DNA from: a virus | Length of the DNA stretch: 64,000 nucleotides | IMG/VR virus record: IMGVR_UViG_3300045912_000261 | Location: 48,534-112,533 of that record | Strand: one strand, 5' to 3' | In this document: piece after piece, positions 4,499 through 64,000 of the stretch | Layout: each line of letters begins with the position of its first letter | How positions within the stretch are numbered: position 1 is the stretch's first letter | The notes under the pieces: generated by a model | Databases searched by the model: none | Seen by the model: the letters and a program-made list of their open reading frames with translations, nothing else | What the model was told of the DNA's origin: nothing | Translations under genes and position numbers: made by a program

Positions 4499-4541
4499 CT
4501 CTCCTCCAGTGGGGTAGGCCTTATCGCTAGGATAGGTAGTA

Positions 4542-7631: not shown

Positions 7632-9365
7632 CTAGACGGGATCGCCTGCTGCGCTGATGTCAGCCAGGAAGGCCCCCTCAGCGGCAAGGACTACATTGAT
7701 ACCTGCTGGCTTAAGCTCTTGTACGAGCTCGGTCATAGCCCTATAGAGGGCATCACCTGGCTCGGCGGGCAGCCTGATAGTAACTGTGTACGTCGGGTAG
7801 GTGTCCACAATTCCAATATCCTGACCCGCGGGGGCGCCTACGGACTTGACGAATTCGGTCCTGGCCTCGTCGCTGAGTACGAACCTGCGCGCGACCACCA
7901 GGGCTCGACGGTCTGCCAACCTTAGCTCCGAGTACGATGGGAGGCCAAGTTGTCTCTCCCAGTCAGCAATAGCCCAGGTGACCTTACTGGGAATTGACTG
8001 GAAGACGCAATCTTCAAGCATCACGTAGATGTCCGCCAGAGCCTTGGCGTGGACGGTATATAGTCCATTCCCGAGGGAGCTCTCCCTGAGGAAGTCGGGC
8101 ATGTACAAACTGCGAAAACGTCCCACAACGTCGTGGACTGTCCAGATCCACACAAAGGATTCCTGGAAGATAATTGTGGGCCCCGTCGACGGAGCCGAGA
8201 CTCTCAGGCGTAACGTGTACTGGACTCCCTGCTGGAAAGGGGGTTCGACCCAAAATCCGAACTTGCCAACTTTGTCCAGGTCGACTGTAGTTGTCATCCA
8301 AGAGCCGTGCACTCCGGAGATGATGAGCTGCCACTCGATCGTGCCATCTGTAATTGGTGCCAGAACCTCTCCAGAGACGCGGTAGCGTCCATTACCGACG
8401 GCTCCAGGCCGCCAGAAGGGATCGAGGACGACGTTGGAGACTTCGACGGACTCGTGGGTAACGTTTCCTAGTACCCACTCACCTCGGCCCTGCTGGTCGT
8501 ATTGAAGCTGAACACCGTCTGGGAAACTAACCGCCGCCGAAAGTTCACCCCTACCCTCAATGAGAATGTCGGCGGTTCCGACTTCGGCGGACAGCTCACC
8601 CCTGCCAGAAACGTTGGCCTCGAGCTCCGTCGGAGGGGTAATAACTGTGAACGGAGTAAGACCCCTACGGTTGAGAAGGGACGGCGTTCTAGTGGGAGGC
8701 CCTCCTAAGGCGTCTGTAGGCGTTCCGTTAAGGGCCCCAACGTCACCGCTGCCTGACAGGTCGTAGATCAGGGAGGTGTTCCACAGAGGCCGTGCATCCA
8801 AGACGCTTCTTAGGACGTAGCCCCTCCACATTACTGTCCTGAGCTCGCCCTCCGTGAGGGCTACGTCGTACCAAGAAACGTAGGCCAGATCCCCGCCAAG
8901 AGCGAAGCCGAAGCTGGGGTCGTTTCCGTAGTGCGGGCGAACACTTCCGGGCGTGAGGCCAGCTGCCGTAGGTGCAATACTGGTGGTTACAGTACGGCTC
9001 GTTGGCCAGGAGTCAACTGCTGGGTCAGAATGGTACACTGTGGGGGTGTTCGTCCCCACTTGAGTAATGGCGAGGAATAGCCACTTTACGCCATTGCCCA
9101 CATGGACCATGTTGGCCGCCGTTACCCACCAGCGGGCAGTCTCGTTACCCGTCTCTCTGTCAATGATGATCCGGCCAGCCTCAGCTGAGCCAAAGTAGAT
9201 GTCGATCGGGAGAGTGGACCCCTCCCCGAAGGACGTTACGTTTCGGTTCGCCGCGGCCGCATTCCACCTGTACCAACAGCAGAAGGTCCAGTCGGAGGGC
9301 GCAGTCAGGTCCGCCGCAGCTCTGCGGACGGCCTGGGTAGAGGCTGCAGCGAAGTTTACTGGCAC
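7632..9365 (-). CDS. Baseplate protein: LamG-like lectin domain fused to DUF2313/YmfQ-type C-terminus
   Basis: 577 residues from a GTG (9363-9365) with no strong ribosome site. Residues ~1-190 look like a LamG/concanavalin fold (SDWTFCCWYRW, VALTEGELRTV). A middle part has GRGELSA modules also seen in the 684-residue beta-helix protein. The last ~190 residues match the tail protein family YmfQ/XkdU (DUF2313): DWERQLGLPS, then RRALVVARR and KPAGINVV. That family closes the baseplate next to gpJ. A lectin domain fused to it is unusual. Confidence 0.75.
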   Translation of the reverse strand: MPVNFAAASTQAVRRAAADLTAPSDWTFCCWYRWNAAAANRNVTSFGEGSTLPIDIYFGSAEAGRIIIDRETGNETARWWVTAANMVHVGNGVKWLFLAITQVGTNTPTVYHSDPAVDSWPTSRTVTTSIAPTAAGLTPGSVRPHYGNDPSFGFALGGDLAYVSWYDVALTEGELRTVMWRGYVLRSVLDARPLWNTSLIYDLSGSGDVGALNGTPTDALGGPPTRTPSLLNRRGLTPFTVITPPTELEANVSGRGELSAEVGTADILIEGRGELSAAVSFPDGVQLQYDQQGRGEWVLGNVTHESVEVSNVVLDPFWRPGAVGNGRYRVSGEVLAPITDGTIEWQLIISGVHGSWMTTTVDLDKVGKFGFWVEPPFQQGVQYTLRLRVSAPSTGPTIIFQESFVWIWTVHDVVGRFRSLYMPDFLRESSLGNGLYTVHAKALADIYVMLEDCVFQSIPSKVTWAIADWERQLGLPSYSELRLADRRALVVARRFVLSDEARTEFVKSVGAPAGQDIGIVDTYPTYTVTIRLPAEPGDALYRAMTELVQELKPAGINVVLAAEGAFLADISAAGDPV

Positions 9366-9368
9366 GAG

Positions 9369-9827
9369 TTAGACTGCGTAGAGGAAGACTGCATCGGCGA
9401 GGATTGTGTCCACTGCCAGCGTGTCGTTGGCGTGAGCCCCCTCGTGGTGGATCTCTACGAGGAGGATGTCATCCGGCGCTGCCCCTGTAACGGAGAAGCT
9501 CACGTCCTTTCTCCTGAGGGCTGTGGTGGGTACCGTAACATCCTGTGCTGCCACACCTGTAAGGGTGGGATCAAGATCCTCTCCGTCAGCCACGAAAGCA
9601 TACCCGATGCTGAGTCTCGTAACTCCGCTCGCGGCGTTAGCCATGATGGACAGCCTAACGGTCCCTCCTGTAGCGTAGTCGTCAGGGATCTGGCACTTTC
9701 CCCTCCACTTACCCGAGACGTCCTTCCTAAAGTGGGGCAAGAGCTGCAAGAAGTCAGCTCCCGCCGGACCGACGTAAGCGTTGCCGTCGGTCGACGGCGT
9801 CGATACGTCGATTGGGACTAGAGGCAT
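9369..9827 (-). CDS. Hypothetical beta-rich tail protein
   Basis: 152 residues, ATG at 9827 preceded by GGAAGGAG. The sequence resembles carbohydrate-binding beta-sandwiches (GGTVRLSIMANAA, DILLVEIHHEGAHANDTLAVD). No family is firmly recognised. It lies between two fibre-type genes and is probably a virion component. Confidence 0.7.
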   Translation of the reverse strand: MPLVPIDVSTPSTDGNAYVGPAGADFLQLLPHFRKDVSGKWRGKCQIPDDYATGGTVRLSIMANAASGVTRLSIGYAFVADGEDLDPTLTGVAAQDVTVPTTALRRKDVSFSVTGAAPDDILLVEIHHEGAHANDTLAVDTILADAVFLYAV

Positions 9828-12401: not shown

Positions 12402-14033
12402 CTAGCTCCCTGCCGTGAGGGTGATCGTGCCCGCCAGAGGCCTCTCGCCTTCAGCCAGCGTGAGATTAGCTGCCGTAAGCGCCTGGCCCGTCCTGGCAAG
12501 CTTCACGTTAGCGTAGTCCACAACCCCAGGGAAGTCGTGAATCACGTTGGCAATGTAGGAGAGCCTGATGACGCCCTCCCCAATCGGTAGGTTCCTGATT
12601 GCGTCCGCGATTGCCTTCTTGAGGTCGTCCTGAATGTCCGACAGCATGAGGCCCGCGTCCACGTAGATGCTGGCCTCAGCATCGACCTTCGTCGCCTTCG
12701 CAGAAATAACGGTAACCTGAATACCGATCGGGGCTTGTCCCTCACCATGGCCTCCTGCCGTGCTGTAGATACGCAGTCCGTCAAGGGTGATCGAGGCGGC
12801 TCCGGAAGCTGTTGAGGTGAGGGAGATACGGATGGAGCCGATGCTGGACCAACTGAATGTTCCGGTGGTCGTGAAGCTACTCCGTGCGATCTCCAACCGG
12901 CCCTGTCCCGTACCGCCCCCGAGTCCATCAATTGTAGCGCCCGTGATGGTTGCCTCCGTCAGGCCTACACCTGTCCCGCCAGGGTCGATGAAGGCAACCT
13001 TCAAGTTGGACACTCGGCCGGTTTGGGCAACCTTCACGGATAGGTGGATCTCGTCAGCTGCATCGTCCCAAAAGCCTAGGTTAAGAGTCTTGGTAAGCGT
13101 CGTAGTAACAGTCTGGCTCGCTCCCGCGGTGGCCAGAATACGAGACTCCTCACCCTCTAGCGGGTTGTTTACCTCCGTCGTGACGGACGCTCCCGACCAA
13201 GCCTCCGCAGCTTCAAAGTGAGCTAGGGTCAGCACGCTGGGGTCGAAGTCAGCTTGGATCTCGTCAACCACGGAGGGGGCCACGTGGATCGTATCCCGCC
13301 CGCTGAGGACGACCCTAGCCGTCCCGTTTCCTAGCCACAAGTCCTCTACGCGTACCCCTCCCACGGCAATGTTGTTGAGACCCAGAGCAACATACGTGGC
13401 TTTGTTTCCAGAGGCGGGCAGCTGCCCCGCTCGGGTGAGTGCCCTGAACCGCAGCTCCTCGTCGTCCTCAACGTCAGTGCCACCCTCAGCCGCGTCGGGG
13501 TTGTTGACATCTGTAATGCCTGGGAGAGGGTCTACGATTAGCACGATCGTGTCGGGGTCTACGTTGGTGTGTGCCCCGGGATCAACGGAGCGAGCCTCGA
13601 CAAGTACTGTGGTCTGGCTCGGTGCAATGGTGTAGGGACCGTTAATCACCTCGAACTCCACACCCGAGCTGCCGACGGCAAAGTCACCCTGCGTCGAGAA
13701 CCGCGAACCGTTATTGATAACCGCACCCTCGTCCCCAGTCACCAACAGTGTAGCCGTGGACTGGGTTGCGGGCCTTCTCGTAAGACCAAACTCGGCGGCC
13801 TTGTCATCGAGTGCGTTGCCGATCGCGTATAGAAGGAAGCCCATAGTAAGGGCGTCCTCTGAATAAGAGTGGAGACGCTGGATCTCTACTGCGATCGGCA
13901 TAAGCACGGCATGGATAAGGGAGCCAGCACGGGTGTTCCAGGAGCCTCCTCCGGCGGGCGGAGGAAGGTCCTCCAGGAGCCGGAGGTAAATGTCCTCCGT
14001 AGTCTCTCCTGGGAAGATGGGGGAAATGGCCAC
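12402..14033 (-). CDS. Baseplate J-like protein
   Basis: 543 residues from a GTG (14031-14033) with AGGAG upstream. The N-terminus (PPPAGGGSWNTRAGSLIHAVLMPIAVE) and the core (AIGNALDDKAAEFGLTRRPATQS, then VEARSVDPGAHTN) are typical of Mu gp47/PBSX XkdT baseplate proteins. These form the wedge that contacts the hub and triggers contraction. An insert at ~265-420 looks like a carbohydrate-binding beta-sandwich, which is not standard for the family. Confidence 0.9.
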   Translation of the reverse strand: MAISPIFPGETTEDIYLRLLEDLPPPAGGGSWNTRAGSLIHAVLMPIAVEIQRLHSYSEDALTMGFLLYAIGNALDDKAAEFGLTRRPATQSTATLLVTGDEGAVINNGSRFSTQGDFAVGSSGVEFEVINGPYTIAPSQTTVLVEARSVDPGAHTNVDPDTIVLIVDPLPGITDVNNPDAAEGGTDVEDDEELRFRALTRAGQLPASGNKATYVALGLNNIAVGGVRVEDLWLGNGTARVVLSGRDTIHVAPSVVDEIQADFDPSVLTLAHFEAAEAWSGASVTTEVNNPLEGEESRILATAGASQTVTTTLTKTLNLGFWDDAADEIHLSVKVAQTGRVSNLKVAFIDPGGTGVGLTEATITGATIDGLGGGTGQGRLEIARSSFTTTGTFSWSSIGSIRISLTSTASGAASITLDGLRIYSTAGGHGEGQAPIGIQVTVISAKATKVDAEASIYVDAGLMLSDIQDDLKKAIADAIRNLPIGEGVIRLSYIANVIHDFPGVVDYANVKLARTGQALTAANLTLAEGERPLAGTITLTAGS

Positions 14034-14042
14034 GAGCAGCTC

Positions 14043-14534
14043 CTAGATCCCAATGGGCAAAGAGGCCTGGAAGGCCAGCGTGGCGTCATCATCCAAAATG
14101 ACGTCAAAGTTGATAGTTAGCAATCCGTCCTGGGACAACTCAAACTCTACGTTGCGGATAGAGTCAATCCTGTCATGCACCAGCAAGGCATCCTCGATCA
14201 TTGCTGGAATCTCGGACGCGATCTCCTGCGGCCTCTGAGAGCCTCCCAGGAGCTCGTGGAGATCGGACCCAAACTCCCCAGGGTAGATTACGGTGGAGCC
14301 CCTACGGGTGATCAGAGCCACGGTGATCCACTGTACAAGAGCCTGTGCTTCATCGGCTTGCTGGAGCCAGTTGCTAGGGCTAACAGCGAAGGCCCCTCGG
14401 ATGAAGTCGAACTGCAGGTCCTTCCCGAGGTCCTGAGGCTCCTCAACCTCAAAGTCCTCGAATGCGCTCTCAGCATCGGTAGGCTCCGGTGCCAGGCCGA
14501 AAACTTCATCGTCCGGTACAAAGTTGGTGCTCAT
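14043..14534 (-). CDS. gp25-like baseplate wedge protein
   Basis: 163 residues. The C-terminal half (RRGSTVIYPGEFGSDLHELLGG; ASEIPAMIEDALLVHDRI) fits the gp25/XkdS family that links baseplate and first sheath ring. The N-terminal ~40 residues are acidic. The gene order spike, gp25, gpJ is the conserved contractile-tail order. Confidence 0.85.
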   Translation of the reverse strand: MSTNFVPDDEVFGLAPEPTDAESAFEDFEVEEPQDLGKDLQFDFIRGAFAVSPSNWLQQADEAQALVQWITVALITRRGSTVIYPGEFGSDLHELLGGSQRPQEIASEIPAMIEDALLVHDRIDSIRNVEFELSQDGLLTINFDVILDDDATLAFQASLPIGI

Positions 14535-15610
14535 GAACCCGCAACCCTAACGGGTGTAGCTGAAATCGAACGCTCCGTCCACCAGGCTCCGTCACCGGAG
14601 TCCTGAATCTTGTACTTACAAGTAAGCGTAACAGCGCTGAGGCCCGTCTTCCTCTTCTCCCTGTACGAATGAAAGGAGGTGTGGGAGAACGTGCCCGAAG
14701 GGCCCGAATGAGTATCCAAAGCATCGGTGTCTGAGGCCGCAGTCGCTCCAATCTGGTAACTCATCCAGTTTTCCTTGTTAGCCGTGCTGGAGTGAATGCG
14801 CGCCCCGATTTTGACGTCGTAGTCGCCTGGAAGGGGTAGAGTGATGGAAGGCCCGACAGTGGCAAGATCACCGTACCCCGTCGCGGTGCGCTGCTCGCTC
14901 GCTGCCACAAGGGCAGATAGGGGAGGACCCCCAACAAAGGCCCAGGGGTAAGTAGCGTTAGGGTCGTAGCAAACCAGGTGCCAGACAATTCCGCTACCTA
15001 CATTGTAGAAAACCGTTCGCCCTAGGGTAGGTGTAGGGAGACTGGTAACCAGGCTAGGGTGCTGCGCCCACTCGACATCGTGATCCGTACCACTAACCTT
15101 TCGGAGCACTGCTCCGGTGGACCCTCCCGTGGGAAGACCTACGGGAGGGGTAGTCCAGCCAACATCGAAGTTGGTGGCACTAGACTTGGTGAGCATCTGT
15201 CCCGTAGACCCCCCGGCAGGGAGCCCCGCAGGCGAGGCCGTCCAGGCAATATCGTAGTCGGCAGCACTGGCTTTCGTAAGGACGTGGCCGTTAGCTCCCC
15301 CTGCAGGGAGTGGCGTCAGGATTCTTGAGGCCTCCTCGTCGGTTAGCTTGCCCACGACGGCCCACATCTTAGCTGTCAGCTGCAGTAGCAGTACCCGGTC
15401 GCCTCTCTTAGGGTTGTACCCGTCAGCCACCCAGATCTCATCGCGGCCGATCAGGTTAGTATCCCCCTCCCTCTCAATCTGGAGGTTCACTCCCACCCTA
15501 CGCACGTACCCCACGGAGGCCTGCCGGACGCTCCTCTGAATCCCTCGCTTAGCCTCATAGCGGGCCGCCTGGACGATACTTTGAGCCGTTCTGGAAGCTG
15601 CAAGGCCCAT
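14531..15610 (-). CDS. Baseplate spike protein with glycine-rich fibre repeats
   Basis: 359 residues. Residues ~30-95 resemble the OB-fold of gpV/gp45-type spikes (VGYVRRVGVNLQIEREGD; KRGDRVLLLQL). Three copies of a ~25-residue repeat follow (consensus LPAGGSTGQMLTKSSATD.DV.W; ~100-175), then a beta-rich C-terminus that could trimerise. The stop overlaps the gp25 start. Probably the membrane-piercing spike, extended into a fibre-like shaft. Confidence 0.75.
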   Translation of the reverse strand: MGLAASRTAQSIVQAARYEAKRGIQRSVRQASVGYVRRVGVNLQIEREGDTNLIGRDEIWVADGYNPKRGDRVLLLQLTAKMWAVVGKLTDEEASRILTPLPAGGANGHVLTKASAADYDIAWTASPAGLPAGGSTGQMLTKSSATNFDVGWTTPPVGLPTGGSTGAVLRKVSGTDHDVEWAQHPSLVTSLPTPTLGRTVFYNVGSGIVWHLVCYDPNATYPWAFVGGPPLSALVAASEQRTATGYGDLATVGPSITLPLPGDYDVKIGARIHSSTANKENWMSYQIGATAASDTDALDTHSGPSGTFSHTSFHSYREKRKTGLSAVTLTCKYKIQDSGDGAWWTERSISATPVRVAGS

Positions 15611-44562: not shown

Positions 44563-45105
44563 CTAGCTACTGCGCCAGTCGACTTCTTCGGGAAGCTTAT
44601 TGTGCTTCCGGCAGTTACAGGACTTGCAGGCTGGAGTTACATTCTCTAGCTCGTGCCGTCCACCCCTGCTGACGGGTACAATGTGATCTACTGTGACAGT
44701 ACCTGGAGTAAGAGTGATTTCGCAGTACGTACACTTCCAGCCCAAGAATTCACATAGCTCGAAAAAGTCCCTCAGGTCTAGATAGCCTCCAGCCTCAGTC
44801 CTACGCGCTCGGTAAGCATGCTGCCAGTTGCGCTGTTTCTCCCTGTTGCGCTCTAGGTACTCTTGCTGTTGCTCCCGAATCCAGTCCGCATTCAGTTTCC
44901 TATACTGGCGATTGTACTCTGAGATGTGCCCTTTGTGTTGTAAGCCCCAAGCTTTTCTACTGGGGTAGGATTCACCGTTGTGGCAAGGCTTACAGCGCCA
45001 AGAGCGCCCTTTGCGGCCGCTTCGGTTCTTGTAAAAGGCCCCAGGAGGCAAATCTTGACCACACTTTCCGCAGCGGAGCAACTCCTGTTCCCTTACAAGA
45101 TTCAA
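44563..45105 (-). CDS. HNH endonuclease 2
   Basis: 180 residues from a TTG (45103-45105) overlapping the previous TGA, with GGAG upstream. CGKCG..CKPC zinc knuckle, CTYC, VDHIVPVSRGGRHELENV, CKSCN: a complete HNH fold. It ends DWRSS, the same five residues that end the small terminase candidate upstream, which may mark a past insertion or duplication. Related in architecture to HNH 1. Confidence 0.85.
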   Translation of the reverse strand: MNLVREQELLRCGKCGQDLPPGAFYKNRSGRKGRSWRCKPCHNGESYPSRKAWGLQHKGHISEYNRQYRKLNADWIREQQQEYLERNREKQRNWQHAYRARRTEAGGYLDLRDFFELCEFLGWKCTYCEITLTPGTVTVDHIVPVSRGGRHELENVTPACKSCNCRKHNKLPEEVDWRSS

Positions 45106-45917
45106 CTACTTCTCCAATCATCTGTATAAATCACTTGGACCTGGACGGTGCCCTGGTTGTTCCCGATGCTGACACCTGGCTTCTGGTCGTTCGCGGGGTG
45201 CTTGCCGTCGCCGTTGGTAGGCTTGCTGGGCTCCTTGCCCCGACTGAGCCTCTCTAGCGCAACGCCGTTCTTGAGCCACTCGTTCATCATCTGAGGCGTA
45301 AGCTCTTCGGGGTCCATGTCCTCTAGGGCCTCTGCTACCTTGTCAATAAGGCGTCTGGCGAGGCCTGCATGAGTCAGCTCCATCTCAATGCTGTCGGCGC
45401 GGAGCTGGATTTCCTGTTCCTGCTCTCTGAACTTGTCGTACGCGCTTGCGCGATACTGCCAGCAGTAAAGGGCTGCGATCGTGTTGAGCGTCGCGGGGTT
45501 CACCTTCAAGAGCTCGGCTACCTTCGCCAGCGTCCGCCGCTTATGCTGCGCCAGCCTGCTCTTTGTAAGGTTGCTTGCCTGTGTGGCACTAGAGGCCGTG
45601 ATCGTGGTATAAGGGTAATCCCTGTACTTCTTGAACGCCTCGTAGTACTTCATCGGCTCGTTCTCGAGGCGCTCCCAAAAAGGTGTCCCCTGCGGCGTAG
45701 TGGGGAAACCTTCAACGTAGCTTAGCGGGATGAGGGTGGGCTCCTCGTAGTCCTCGCTCAGGGTTGTGGGGTCCCAGTACCCCTCGATGTTGCCATCGAC
45801 GTCTAGGGGGAGCTGTCTGGCGTTGGCTCTATCGACTAGCGCCTTAGTCGCATTGAGCATCTCCGGAGGGAGATCCAGCTCTTGTCTTGCGGTAGTGGGT
45901 TCTAGTGCGGTCCCCAT
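45102..45917 (-). CDS. Terminase small subunit candidate
   Basis: 271 residues, ATG at 45917. First gene after the leftward promoter. Helical core with HTH-like segment (HKRRTLAKVAELLKVNPATLN; YCWQYRASAYDKFRE) followed by a long helix and a disordered Lys/Asn-rich tail, consistent with DNA-recognising small terminases. The position before HNH and large terminase supports this. No unique motif confirms it. Confidence 0.65.
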   Translation of the reverse strand: MGTALEPTTARQELDLPPEMLNATKALVDRANARQLPLDVDGNIEGYWDPTTLSEDYEEPTLIPLSYVEGFPTTPQGTPFWERLENEPMKYYEAFKKYRDYPYTTITASSATQASNLTKSRLAQHKRRTLAKVAELLKVNPATLNTIAALYCWQYRASAYDKFREQEQEIQLRADSIEMELTHAGLARRLIDKVAEALEDMDPEELTPQMMNEWLKNGVALERLSRGKEPSKPTNGDGKHPANDQKPGVSIGNNQGTVQVQVIYTDDWRSS

Positions 45918-46006: not shown

Positions 46007-46100
46007 CGAGCCCAAACCGACTTGATCGGGCACCTGCCCCCCCCCCGTCCAAACCCTGCCTGTTTTGCCTGCCCCCTTGTAGGAGAAGAGACGGCTGCGC
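46007..46100. other. C-rich boundary of the divergent region
   Basis: No gene. Contains a C9 run (46036-46044) and several C3-C5 runs on the plus strand, then changes abruptly to the C-free tract. The strong strand asymmetry in opposite senses on the two sides is conspicuous. Confidence 0.7.
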
Positions 46101-46408
46101 GGTGGTTGGAATTAGAATGGTTGGGTGATAGTTGTATAGAGGAGGTTAGAGGGGATGTGGTTGAAAGAATTTGTAAGGTAGTAAAGAGAGGAAAGTAGAT
46201 TGGTAAGTTTATGGTAGATGGAAGGTTAAAGTGAAGGAAGGAAAGGAGATGATGAAGGAATGAAGTAGGAAAGGTTGAAGTAGTTGGTGTAGAGTATAGT
46301 GAAAGGAGTGGGGGATATGTGGATGATGATGTGGAATGGTGAGGTGGAGAGTGTGGAAAAGGTGAAGAAGGAATGTGAGATGTTTGAGTTGGAGATGGTG
46401 ATGGGTTG
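46101..46408 (+). other. 308-nt cytosine-free tract
   Basis: Not one C occurs on the plus strand from 46101 to 46408. Composition is G-rich, then A, then T, with GG/GGA/GTGG motifs but no perfect tandem repeat. Frequent TGA/TAG stops exclude a protein. The minus strand is G-free, so it contains no ATG, GTG or TTG. It lies between the divergent arms. Candidate roles: R-loop replication origin, Rho-loading (leftward RNA is G-free, C-rich), or unstructured RNA. Confidence 0.95.
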
Positions 46409-50071: not shown

Positions 50072-50230
50072 TTCTTGTGCCTTGAGTGATTTCTTTCTTG
50101 TGCCTTGAGTGATTTCTTTCTTGTGCCTTAAGTAGGTTCTTTCTTGTGCCTTACTGATTTCTTGTGCCTCGAGTAGGTACTTCTTGTGCCTTGTCTTGTG
50201 TTCTGAGTAGGTTCTTGTGCCTTGGGTAGT
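50072..50230 (+). repeat. Eight-copy CTTGTGCCTTGAGT tandem array
   Basis: Copies of CTTGTGCCT start at 50074, 50097, 50120, 50143, 50161, 50183, 50195 (variant) and 50214. The first three intervals are exactly 23 bp, then irregular. The 3' part varies around a YRAGTAGG/TGATTTC end. The array ends ~25 bp before promoter P2. Candidate iterons or an operator array. Confidence 0.9.
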
Positions 50231-50255
50231 TCCCCTCCCGTACTTGTTACGGGTA

Positions 50256-62541: not shown

Positions 62542-62919
62542 TTGCCGAAGGCGTTCGTAGGAGACGATGGGCAGCTCTACAAAGCATGTCCGCAGTGCAT
62601 TAAGGACGAAATGGCAGTCTTCCCAACCCTGGATAAGGAGGAGGCAACCCTTAGGGTAACTGTGCTAGCAGAGGACAACTTCTGTGCTAGCTCATATACC
62701 TCAGACGGCTTCCAACCTTGGTGTAAAGCTCATGTGCACGAGGCCAACAAGAGGCGTCAGCAGGAACTTGATCCTGCGGAAAGGGAGAGGAGGAAAGCAC
62801 GCCAGAGGGAAAACGCCAAGAGACACAGGGAAGCCCTCCGCGCAGCGGCTTCCAAGAAGAAAGCCTCCCTTGAGGCTCCTGATGACGTAGGTGGGTTGAT
62901 TCCTCCCCCAAATGAGTAA
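62542..62919 (+). CDS. Zinc-knuckle protein related to HNH N-termini
   Basis: 125 residues from TTG 62542 (GGAGGA upstream). KACPQCIKDE, then C and DGFQPWCKAHVHEANK, resemble the zinc knuckle preceding HNH domains in this phage (C..C...F....DG...C..C), followed by a long basic helix and no nuclease core. Possibly DNA-binding. Confidence 0.7.
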   Translation: MPKAFVGDDGQLYKACPQCIKDEMAVFPTLDKEEATLRVTVLAEDNFCASSYTSDGFQPWCKAHVHEANKRRQQELDPAERERRKARQRENAKRHREALRAAASKKKASLEAPDDVGGLIPPPNE

Positions 62920-63388
62920 TCTCACCGTAGGCACCGTAAACACAGTGTGCGCCCGGGGTAGACTGTTTCCTACTTCAATTTTCCTGCCCGACAACCCCGA
63001 AGATGTCTCCCGCAGGAAGCTCCGGAAGTTTTGCCGGCAGAATCTAGCTGCCCTCGCTTTCCTCTCTTGGCTCTACCAAGGCGTTGTACCACGTGACCTT
63101 AAGTTCAGGGCGCTGAGCTCCCTGGATAGCTACCGAGTCTCACGTGGCCGAACGGCACTGACCCACACCCTAGCGGGGATGACTGCCTGCATACTTCTCT
63201 CTCAAGCGTCCCTTCTCGTACACGTCCTCGTTACCGGCCGCTCTTGGTTCTTGGGGCTGATTGCGGTCCCATTCATAGGATGGTCGGTGTACATGCTGCG
63301 CTGCTGCCTCGAAGAGGCCTCAAGGAAGAAGGCTCTGGCACAGAAGTACCTGGAGGAGTACAAAGACAACATGAACAACTGGTTCTAG
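62912..63388 (+). CDS. Two-helix membrane protein
   Basis: 158 residues, ATG overlaps the previous gene. Two central transmembrane segments (GMTACILLSQASLLVHVLV; WFLGLIAVPFIGWSVYML) and charged helical C-terminus. Not recognised. Confidence 0.7.
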   Translation: MSNLTVGTVNTVCARGRLFPTSIFLPDNPEDVSRRKLRKFCRQNLAALAFLSWLYQGVVPRDLKFRALSSLDSYRVSRGRTALTHTLAGMTACILLSQASLLVHVLVTGRSWFLGLIAVPFIGWSVYMLRCCLEEASRKKALAQKYLEEYKDNMNNWF

Positions 63389-63399
63389 GAGGAGAGGCC

Positions 63400-63621
63400 A
63401 TGACAGCAAGCCCTGAGAGACCATCACCCACACCTTCGGCAACGATCAGTAGGATCGAGTGGCCGCCAATGGTCCACTTGGACCAAGAGGACCTACTGAG
63501 GATCCGTATCGCCCTCGAGGCAATGATCGCCGGGAACAGGCACTCCCCTGCCGGAGTGGCCGCCAACGAAGGCTTCGACGCCACCCTGGACAAGATCTAC
63601 AGGTATCTCTCAAACCGCTGA
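63400..63621 (+). CDS. Hypothetical small helical protein
   Basis: 73 residues, ATG 63400 after AGGAGGAGAGG. Ser/Pro/Thr-rich N-terminus, then HLDQEDLLRIRIALEAMIAG. Last gene before the right-edge array. Confidence 0.7.
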   Translation: MTASPERPSPTPSATISRIEWPPMVHLDQEDLLRIRIALEAMIAGNRHSPAGVAANEGFDATLDKIYRYLSNR

Positions 63622-63643
63622 GACTCTCCATCCCCACTCCCTC

Positions 63644-63993
63644 CGAAGCGACAACCCTTCTCCTCTCAGCCCGAAGCGACATTCCGACTCGCTGCTCTCC
63701 GAGGTGACATCCCGAACCGGCCCTTTCGGCCCTCAGCGACTGACCACCCCCACTCCGCCCGAAGCGACAATCCGCGTCCTTTCAGACCGACGCGACATAT
63801 CACACCGAGTCCGTCCGACGCGACACGCCTCGTCGTGTCCTCTCATCTCGACCCAAAGCGACTCTCCGTGCCACCTCTCGTCGAAGCGACGTTCCCGACC
63901 ATCTCCCGTCCCGTCGGCCCCTCCCGAAGCGACTCACCGAGCCGGCTCGAAGCGACATCCCGTATCGCGTCGGTCCAGCCAAGCCGAAGCGAC
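63644..63993 (+). repeat. Twelve-copy CGAAGCGAC array on a mostly 28-bp period
   Basis: CGAAGCGAC or a close variant starts at 63644, 63672, 63700, 63732, 63760, 63788, 63816, 63854, 63882, 63925, 63948 and 63985. Six of eleven intervals are exactly 28 bp. Sequences between differ and are C-rich. No gene is seen in 63622-64000, and the array may run past the window. Confidence 0.9.
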
Positions 63994-64000
63994 AAATCGT

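Follow-up and report, generated by a model that had tools for sequence, protein, structure and literature searches.

The array at the right end of the contig

The window examined here, a 64,000-nucleotide stretch of viral DNA, covers bases 48,534-112,533 of the 112,533-bp IMG/VR record IMGVR_UViG_3300045912_000261, a contig that can be assigned to a tailed phage because terminase, portal, tape-measure, and baseplate genes are present on it. At the extreme right end of this record lies an array of short repeated words in non-coding DNA, which we analyze as a candidate guide-RNA array of the Viral Interference Programmable Repeat (VIPR) type. A preliminary description of the window had reported twelve 9-bp words at this position together with their spacing, and both were recovered: there are 12 CGAAGCGAC-like copies, 7 of them exact and the other 5 with one or two mismatches, and the successive word-to-word intervals are 28, 28, 32, 28, 28, 28, 38, 28, 43, 23, and 37 nt (Table 1). 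Only 0.78 exact words would be expected in 64 kb, and 7 were never reached in shuffles. The cluster is one of the two densest in the 112.5-kb record, and no stretch with such words was found when the 48.5 kb preceding the window were scanned.

The array follows the stop codon of a short open reading frame (ORF), which ends at 63621, and a coding reading of the array itself was rejected since the 28-nt spacing disrupts every frame, in line with the non-coding status first proposed. No relative was found for the adjacent ORF at 62912-63388. The array is probably truncated, because the record stops 7 nt after the twelfth word, i.e., inside the array; attempts at contig extension found neither the array nor either contig end in any other IMG/VR contig. 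As a separate observation on the contig ends, the 15 bases with which the contig opens (G000:C1:1-15) recur exactly at window positions 62918-62932, ~1.1 kb before the other end, and this recurrence, together with gene order, suggests that the genome is permuted or circular and that a gap lies at the array.

Table 1 Features of the array and its surroundings (window coordinates).
Feature	Position	Strand	Remark
Final ORF 5' of the array	63400-63621	+	73 amino acids, no family match
NNNYC lattice with GAC phase shifts	63625-64000	+	candidate guide-RNA (vrRNA) array, ends at contig end
Word starts 1-6	63644, 63672, 63700, 63732, 63760, 63788	+	CGAAGCGAC-like
Word starts 7-12	63816, 63854, 63882, 63925, 63948, 63985	+	CGAAGCGAC-like
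Unit boundary 1	63645-63652	+	GAAGC + GAC (GAC 63650-63652)
Unit boundary 2	63673-63680	+	GAAGC + GAC
Unit boundary 3	63701-63708	+	GAGGT + GAC
Unit boundary 4	63733-63740	+	TCAGC + GAC, one 4-nt unit in preceding spacer
Unit boundary 5	63761-63768	+	GAAGC + GAC
Unit boundary 6	63789-63796	+	GACGC + GAC
Unit boundary 7	63817-63824	+	GACGC + GAC
Unit boundary 8	63855-63862	+	AAAGC + GAC
Unit boundary 9	63883-63890	+	GAAGC + GAC
Unit boundary 10	63926-63933	+	GAAGC + GAC
Unit boundary 11	63949-63956	+	GAAGC + GAC
Unit boundary 12	63986-63993	+	GAAGC + GAC, 7 nt from contig end
Segmental duplication, copy 1	63622-63682	+	61 bp, 80% identical to 63738-63798
Segmental duplication, copy 2	63738-63798	+	

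A pentanucleotide lattice with GAC phase shifts

Alignment of the 12 copies revealed an invariant C within the word and also, on either side of the word, at distances of 5, 10, and 15 nt, counted on the right from its end. The whole stretch parses as NNNYC pentamers interrupted by GAAGCGAC-like octamers, so that the sequence between the words, at first described as non-similar, instead follows a strict 5-nt lattice, 41 of whose 43 lattice positions are C, compared to 20.5 in shuffles that held the words fixed. On the non-duplicated subset, none of 200,000 shuffles matched the observed lattice C, and the enrichment was seen at periods 5 and 10 only. In a de novo scan for any period on the given strand across the whole record, the array was by far the strongest period-5 signal (score 46.8, runner-up 20.2). 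In the lattice scan described below, its score is 104.3, with 12 GAC.

Every 4-8 pentamers, a 3-nt GAC moves the phase of the lattice, and each "word" consists of a C, the pentamer GAAGC, and this GAC. The word spacings follow from the combination of pentamer lattice and octamers: 23, 28, 38, and 43 all equal 8 + 5k (28 being 4 x 5 + 8), while 32 and 37 each hold one 4-nt unit. The C content of the array reaches 43.5%, with a C-over-G skew among the most extreme of the genome. Neither RNA nor DNA folding of the array exceeded that of shuffles, and a search of Rfam with the array returned no match. The early judgment that the array is neither a clustered regularly interspaced short palindromic repeat (CRISPR) array nor a simple tandem repeat stands. 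A CRISPR array would consist of near-identical repeats of 23-47 nt with unique spacers in between, whereas here the recurring part is limited to 8 nt and a common 5-nt lattice runs through the spacers.

Sister arrays in other viruses

The IMG/VR database was scanned with a pattern that required YC at 5-nt intervals and two phase shifts of +3, the shift bases being left free. The lattice is thus selected by the pattern and does not constitute independent evidence, whereas GAC, neighboring genes, and promoter boxes do. A large share of the matches were poly-C or microsatellites; the remainder displayed the architecture of the present array, and at least about 50 other viral loci carry the identical lattice with GAC. 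Among the matches listed, the free trinucleotide at the phase shift was GAC in 98 of 236 cases (runner-up, 10) and in 40 of 50 loci, and array lengths spanned ~140 to 3,968 bp, the largest with 113 GAC. Across 6130 pentamers of the class, positions 1 and 2 were nearly flat, position 4 was C in 69% and T in 20%, and position 5 was C in 97%.

Since GAC recurs at phase-shift bases that the scan left free, the 9-bp word is best understood as the last pentamer before a GAC, plus that GAC. This pentamer is genome-specific (GAAGC here; GCTGC, CATTC, and GTCAC in other loci), and no other locus found has the word in such an arrangement. What the search for the array elsewhere, recommended at the outset, shows to be conserved is the lattice with its GAC and not the 9-bp word. 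Three-word scans of IMG/VR and GTDB yielded only near-identical bacterial tandem repeats and unrelated viral repeats. Word-bearing bacterial repeats (mycobacteria, Lysinibacillus, and others) were rejected as relatives, being near-identical tandem repeats of a different nature; for instance, 30- or 36-bp tandem repeats between mycobacterial genes contain GAGCGAAGCGAC with nearly identical spacers (L107, L111, L115, L135, L172, and others). Relatives identified through the capsid gene are distant, and 25 of their records lacked the word-pair pattern; the GAC lattice was not found in the capsid-relative loci included in the lattice scan, and no DNA similarity to known phages was detected. A C lattice of another period, 7 nt, extends over ~620 bp of a Spirochaetaceae contig (L157:3959-4582; score 55.7) and resembles the pentanucleotide lattice.

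Linkage to a Cas7-like RAMP gene

Many sister arrays end 11-36 nt 5' of a gene's start codon or start just after a gene, and those array-adjacent genes that match one another form a single family with an invariant G-rich loop. The linkage is tight: a RAMP profile search was positive in 28 of the 50 array loci among the matches listed, compared with 0 of 285 other loci (Fisher p = 1.7e-27). Eight further array contigs carry the RAMP gene elsewhere, outside the stretch first analyzed, and it was present in 8 of 9 contigs longer than 50 kb among the array contigs rechecked. In the Microcystis phage Mae-JY09, a RAMP gene is directly followed by an array of the GAC-lattice type.

The best sequence match of the sister-locus RAMP profile in the PDB was Vipr of Escherichia phage SUSP1 (36pp_D, E 0.0017), and the PADLOC models for Csm4, Cas6, and Csm3 matched the family weakly. 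An AlphaFold model of a sister RAMP protein (predicted local distance difference test, 85.7) matched Csm3 and type VII Cas7 (Foldseek E about 1e-7, probability 1.0; in a separate comparison, Z 11.4), and as modeled the sister-locus family has a Csm3/Cas7 fold. The RAMP was not found when plasmids and 394 genomes from a single bacterial class were searched. In nine loci (L287, L242, L310, L330, L314, L276, L336, L308, and L341), a conserved gene of ~171 amino acids adjoins both the RAMP gene and the array and is a candidate accessory (vap) gene; no homologue of it was found in the contig of the phage studied here.

Array and RAMP gene lie on the same strand in 35 cases and on opposite strands in 3, and -10-like boxes upstream of arrays were found 10 times on the RAMP-shared (+) strand and never on the other. 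Based on these two strand biases, the guide strand is likely the strand as written, NN-N-YC, and not its complement GR-N-NN, although the latter is closer to GGY-NN.

Interpretation as a probable VIPR-type guide array

VIPR, a recently described RNA-guided system from which CRISPR effectors have been proposed to descend, combines a phage RAMP protein, Vipr, with pentanucleotide-repeat guide RNAs (2026 preprint, PMC13142463). As described in that preprint, a conserved GGY alternates in the guides with a hypervariable NN, "or a related consensus", the guides read DNA through gaps with a 1-nt skip and mostly target competing phages, and seven types are distinguished, in some of which the guides overlap within staggered arrays. 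When SUSP1 was used as a control, a GGYNN lattice was found next to its vipr gene.

We consider it highly probable that the array described here is the left part of a VIPR-type guide-RNA array carried by a tailed phage, because architecture, partner family, and viral home all agree: the carrier is a tailed-phage contig, the array is a non-coding pentanucleotide array with hypervariable dinucleotides, and a RAMP related to known Vipr is encoded at the sister loci, if not on this contig. A vipr gene is expected beyond the contig end, presumably just past it. The regular spacing had initially been taken to suggest a protein filament or cooperative binding, and a protein assembling along the array is retained here, although not a double-stranded DNA-binding initiator or partition protein; because the lattice with GAC recurs next to a Cas7-like RAMP gene, the likely partner is a filament of RAMP (Vipr) copies assembled on an RNA transcript of the array.

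From homology to the VIPR system as published, we infer transcription, ribonucleoprotein formation, and DNA targeting. Transcription from left to right would produce an RNA of NN-N-Y-C pentamers, and the small Cas7-like RAMP, with one copy per pentamer, would grip the conserved YC bases and display the variable bases for gapped pairing with the DNA of competing phages or satellites, leading to its silencing. The GAC, here mostly placed after GAAGC, punctuates the array and probably marks guide starts, guide ends, or processing sites; guides that overlap in a staggered manner would be compatible with this. The GAC punctuation and the predominance of C in the consensus may be signs of a distinct VIPR type. 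A more specific proposal, which we put forward tentatively and regard as somewhat doubtful, is that such arrays form a type with its own code, in which the pentamers are anchored by C, each unit has perhaps as many as three variable bases, and GAC phase marks allow a single RNA of up to 4 kb to bear more than 100 overlapping guides, unlike the known GGY/NN guides.

Several results weigh against the VIPR assignment. The RAMP gene is absent from the 112.5 kb available for this phage, the contig stopping inside the array, and no promoter or terminator was recognized between 63000 and 64000. Between the units, no conserved 3' tail could be discerned, the consensus on the RAMP-shared strand is NN-N-YC and not the GGY-NN of SUSP1, though the preprint also admits a related one, and GAC punctuation does not feature in the main text of PMC13142463. 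Finally, decoding of the variable bases under skip rules of 0-4 with NN or NNN units gave no target above shuffles in ~3.4 Mb. A codon-position test was initially positive but did not hold for the class as a whole once a uniform control was used; the present array alone favors codon positions 1-2 by 5.7 bits, which is too little to count.

Among other explanations, a degenerate array of protein-binding sites on double-stranded DNA (iterons, a parS/parC-like centromere, or a packaging site), in which a protein recognizes the 9-bp word and the lattice aids polymerization, appears very improbable. Direct repeats spaced by 28 bp in non-coding DNA would suit such an array, short degenerate lattices occur for some partition proteins, and a ParB-like gene lies downstream of some array loci (L322_6180). 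However, the words lack helical phasing (28, 32, 38, 43, 23, and 37 bp) and are genome-specific, while the lattice and GAC are what the loci have in common, and the linked gene encodes a Cas7-fold RAMP. The array is also C-rich where an origin would be AT-rich, and it lies ~21 kb from TerL. The iterons, partition centromere, packaging site, or regulator sponge suggested at the outset are unsupported. As to an initiator for an iteron origin, no Rep family was detected among the 20 left-arm proteins scanned against Pfam.

Even less probable, in our assessment, is a C-rich transcribed Rho-utilization (rut) region or another RNA-protein sponge unrelated to the RAMP. Rho prefers YC dinucleotides, and both the high C content with its extreme skew and the position of the array directly 3' of the stop codon of an early gene would be in keeping with a rut region, yet a strict 5-nt period, +3 shifts at GAC, up to 113 GAC units, and a near-exclusive association with a RAMP are unexpected of rut sites, and the lattice is kept in a lower-GC locus whose array is just 33% C. 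A decayed minisatellite without present function can be largely dismissed, since decay would strike all positions equally, whereas the two copies of the 61-bp duplication differ only at N positions or word position 3 and never at YC, and unrelated phages share the lattice while their variable bases are unrelated. In favor of a minisatellite, the duplication does indicate growth of the array by duplication, and exact CGAAGCGAC-containing tandem repeats are frequent in bacteria.

The candidate VIPR-type array was found without any protein clue, and the lattice signature alone yielded the at least about 50 IMG/VR loci, with arrays of up to 113 units; this signature therefore represents a search method independent of the vipr gene. 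A guide set of this size could make it possible to work out the code and what GAC signifies, as well as the targets in conflicts between phages.

Other features of the phage genome

The left part of the record encodes a PolA-type exonuclease, a ligase, preQ0-pathway proteins, and a TROVE protein. A TROVE/Ro60 protein gene and genes for QueC, PTPS, and GTP cyclohydrolase I were located (L005:17420-18982; L006:5624-6352, 8993-9391, and 14029-14862), and the latter three suggest 7-deazaguanine DNA modification in this phage. A second repeat array, at window positions 50072-50240, consists of TTCTTGTGCCTTGAGTGATTTC with a period of about 23 nt, including seven TTCTTGTG copies within 170 bp, and sits in a non-coding gap, with an AT-rich, promoter-like stretch downstream of it. 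A dispersed ~25-bp repeat, TAGGACTAGGTGCCCGAGTTGAC, occurs in many copies on both strands, mostly intergenic, between window positions 4531 and 62402 and in the left 48 kb. Just beyond the probable terS gene (45102-45917), one strand is nearly C-free at 46043-46400 (2.6% C over 350 nt) and rich in G and A.

Comparison with known systems

TIGR-Tas shares with the system proposed here the existence of phage-borne guide arrays outside CRISPR (PMC12045711), and differs in that Tas proteins are Nop-domain proteins rather than RAMPs and in the anatomy of the array. Class 1 CRISPR-Cas systems, in which Cas7/Csm3 filaments assemble on crRNA, are closer with respect to the protein, as the linked RAMPs show the predicted Csm3/Cas7 fold and the G-rich loop, and the logic of an RNA-guided filament would be the same; however, their period is 6, whereas the period here is 5, without CRISPR repeats and without alternation of identical repeats and unique spacers. 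The nearest system is type II VIPR of Escherichia phage SUSP1, whose guides are described as separate GGYNN RNAs of ~100 nt, each with a structured tail and encoded on the vipr strand (PMC13142463), in contrast to the continuous NN-N-YC lattice found here, with GAC every 4-8 pentamers and no visible tail. Both are phage-borne, both are built of non-coding pentanucleotides repeated in tandem, each including a hypervariable dinucleotide, and the single small RAMP gene alongside the SUSP1 array has its counterpart in the sister loci.
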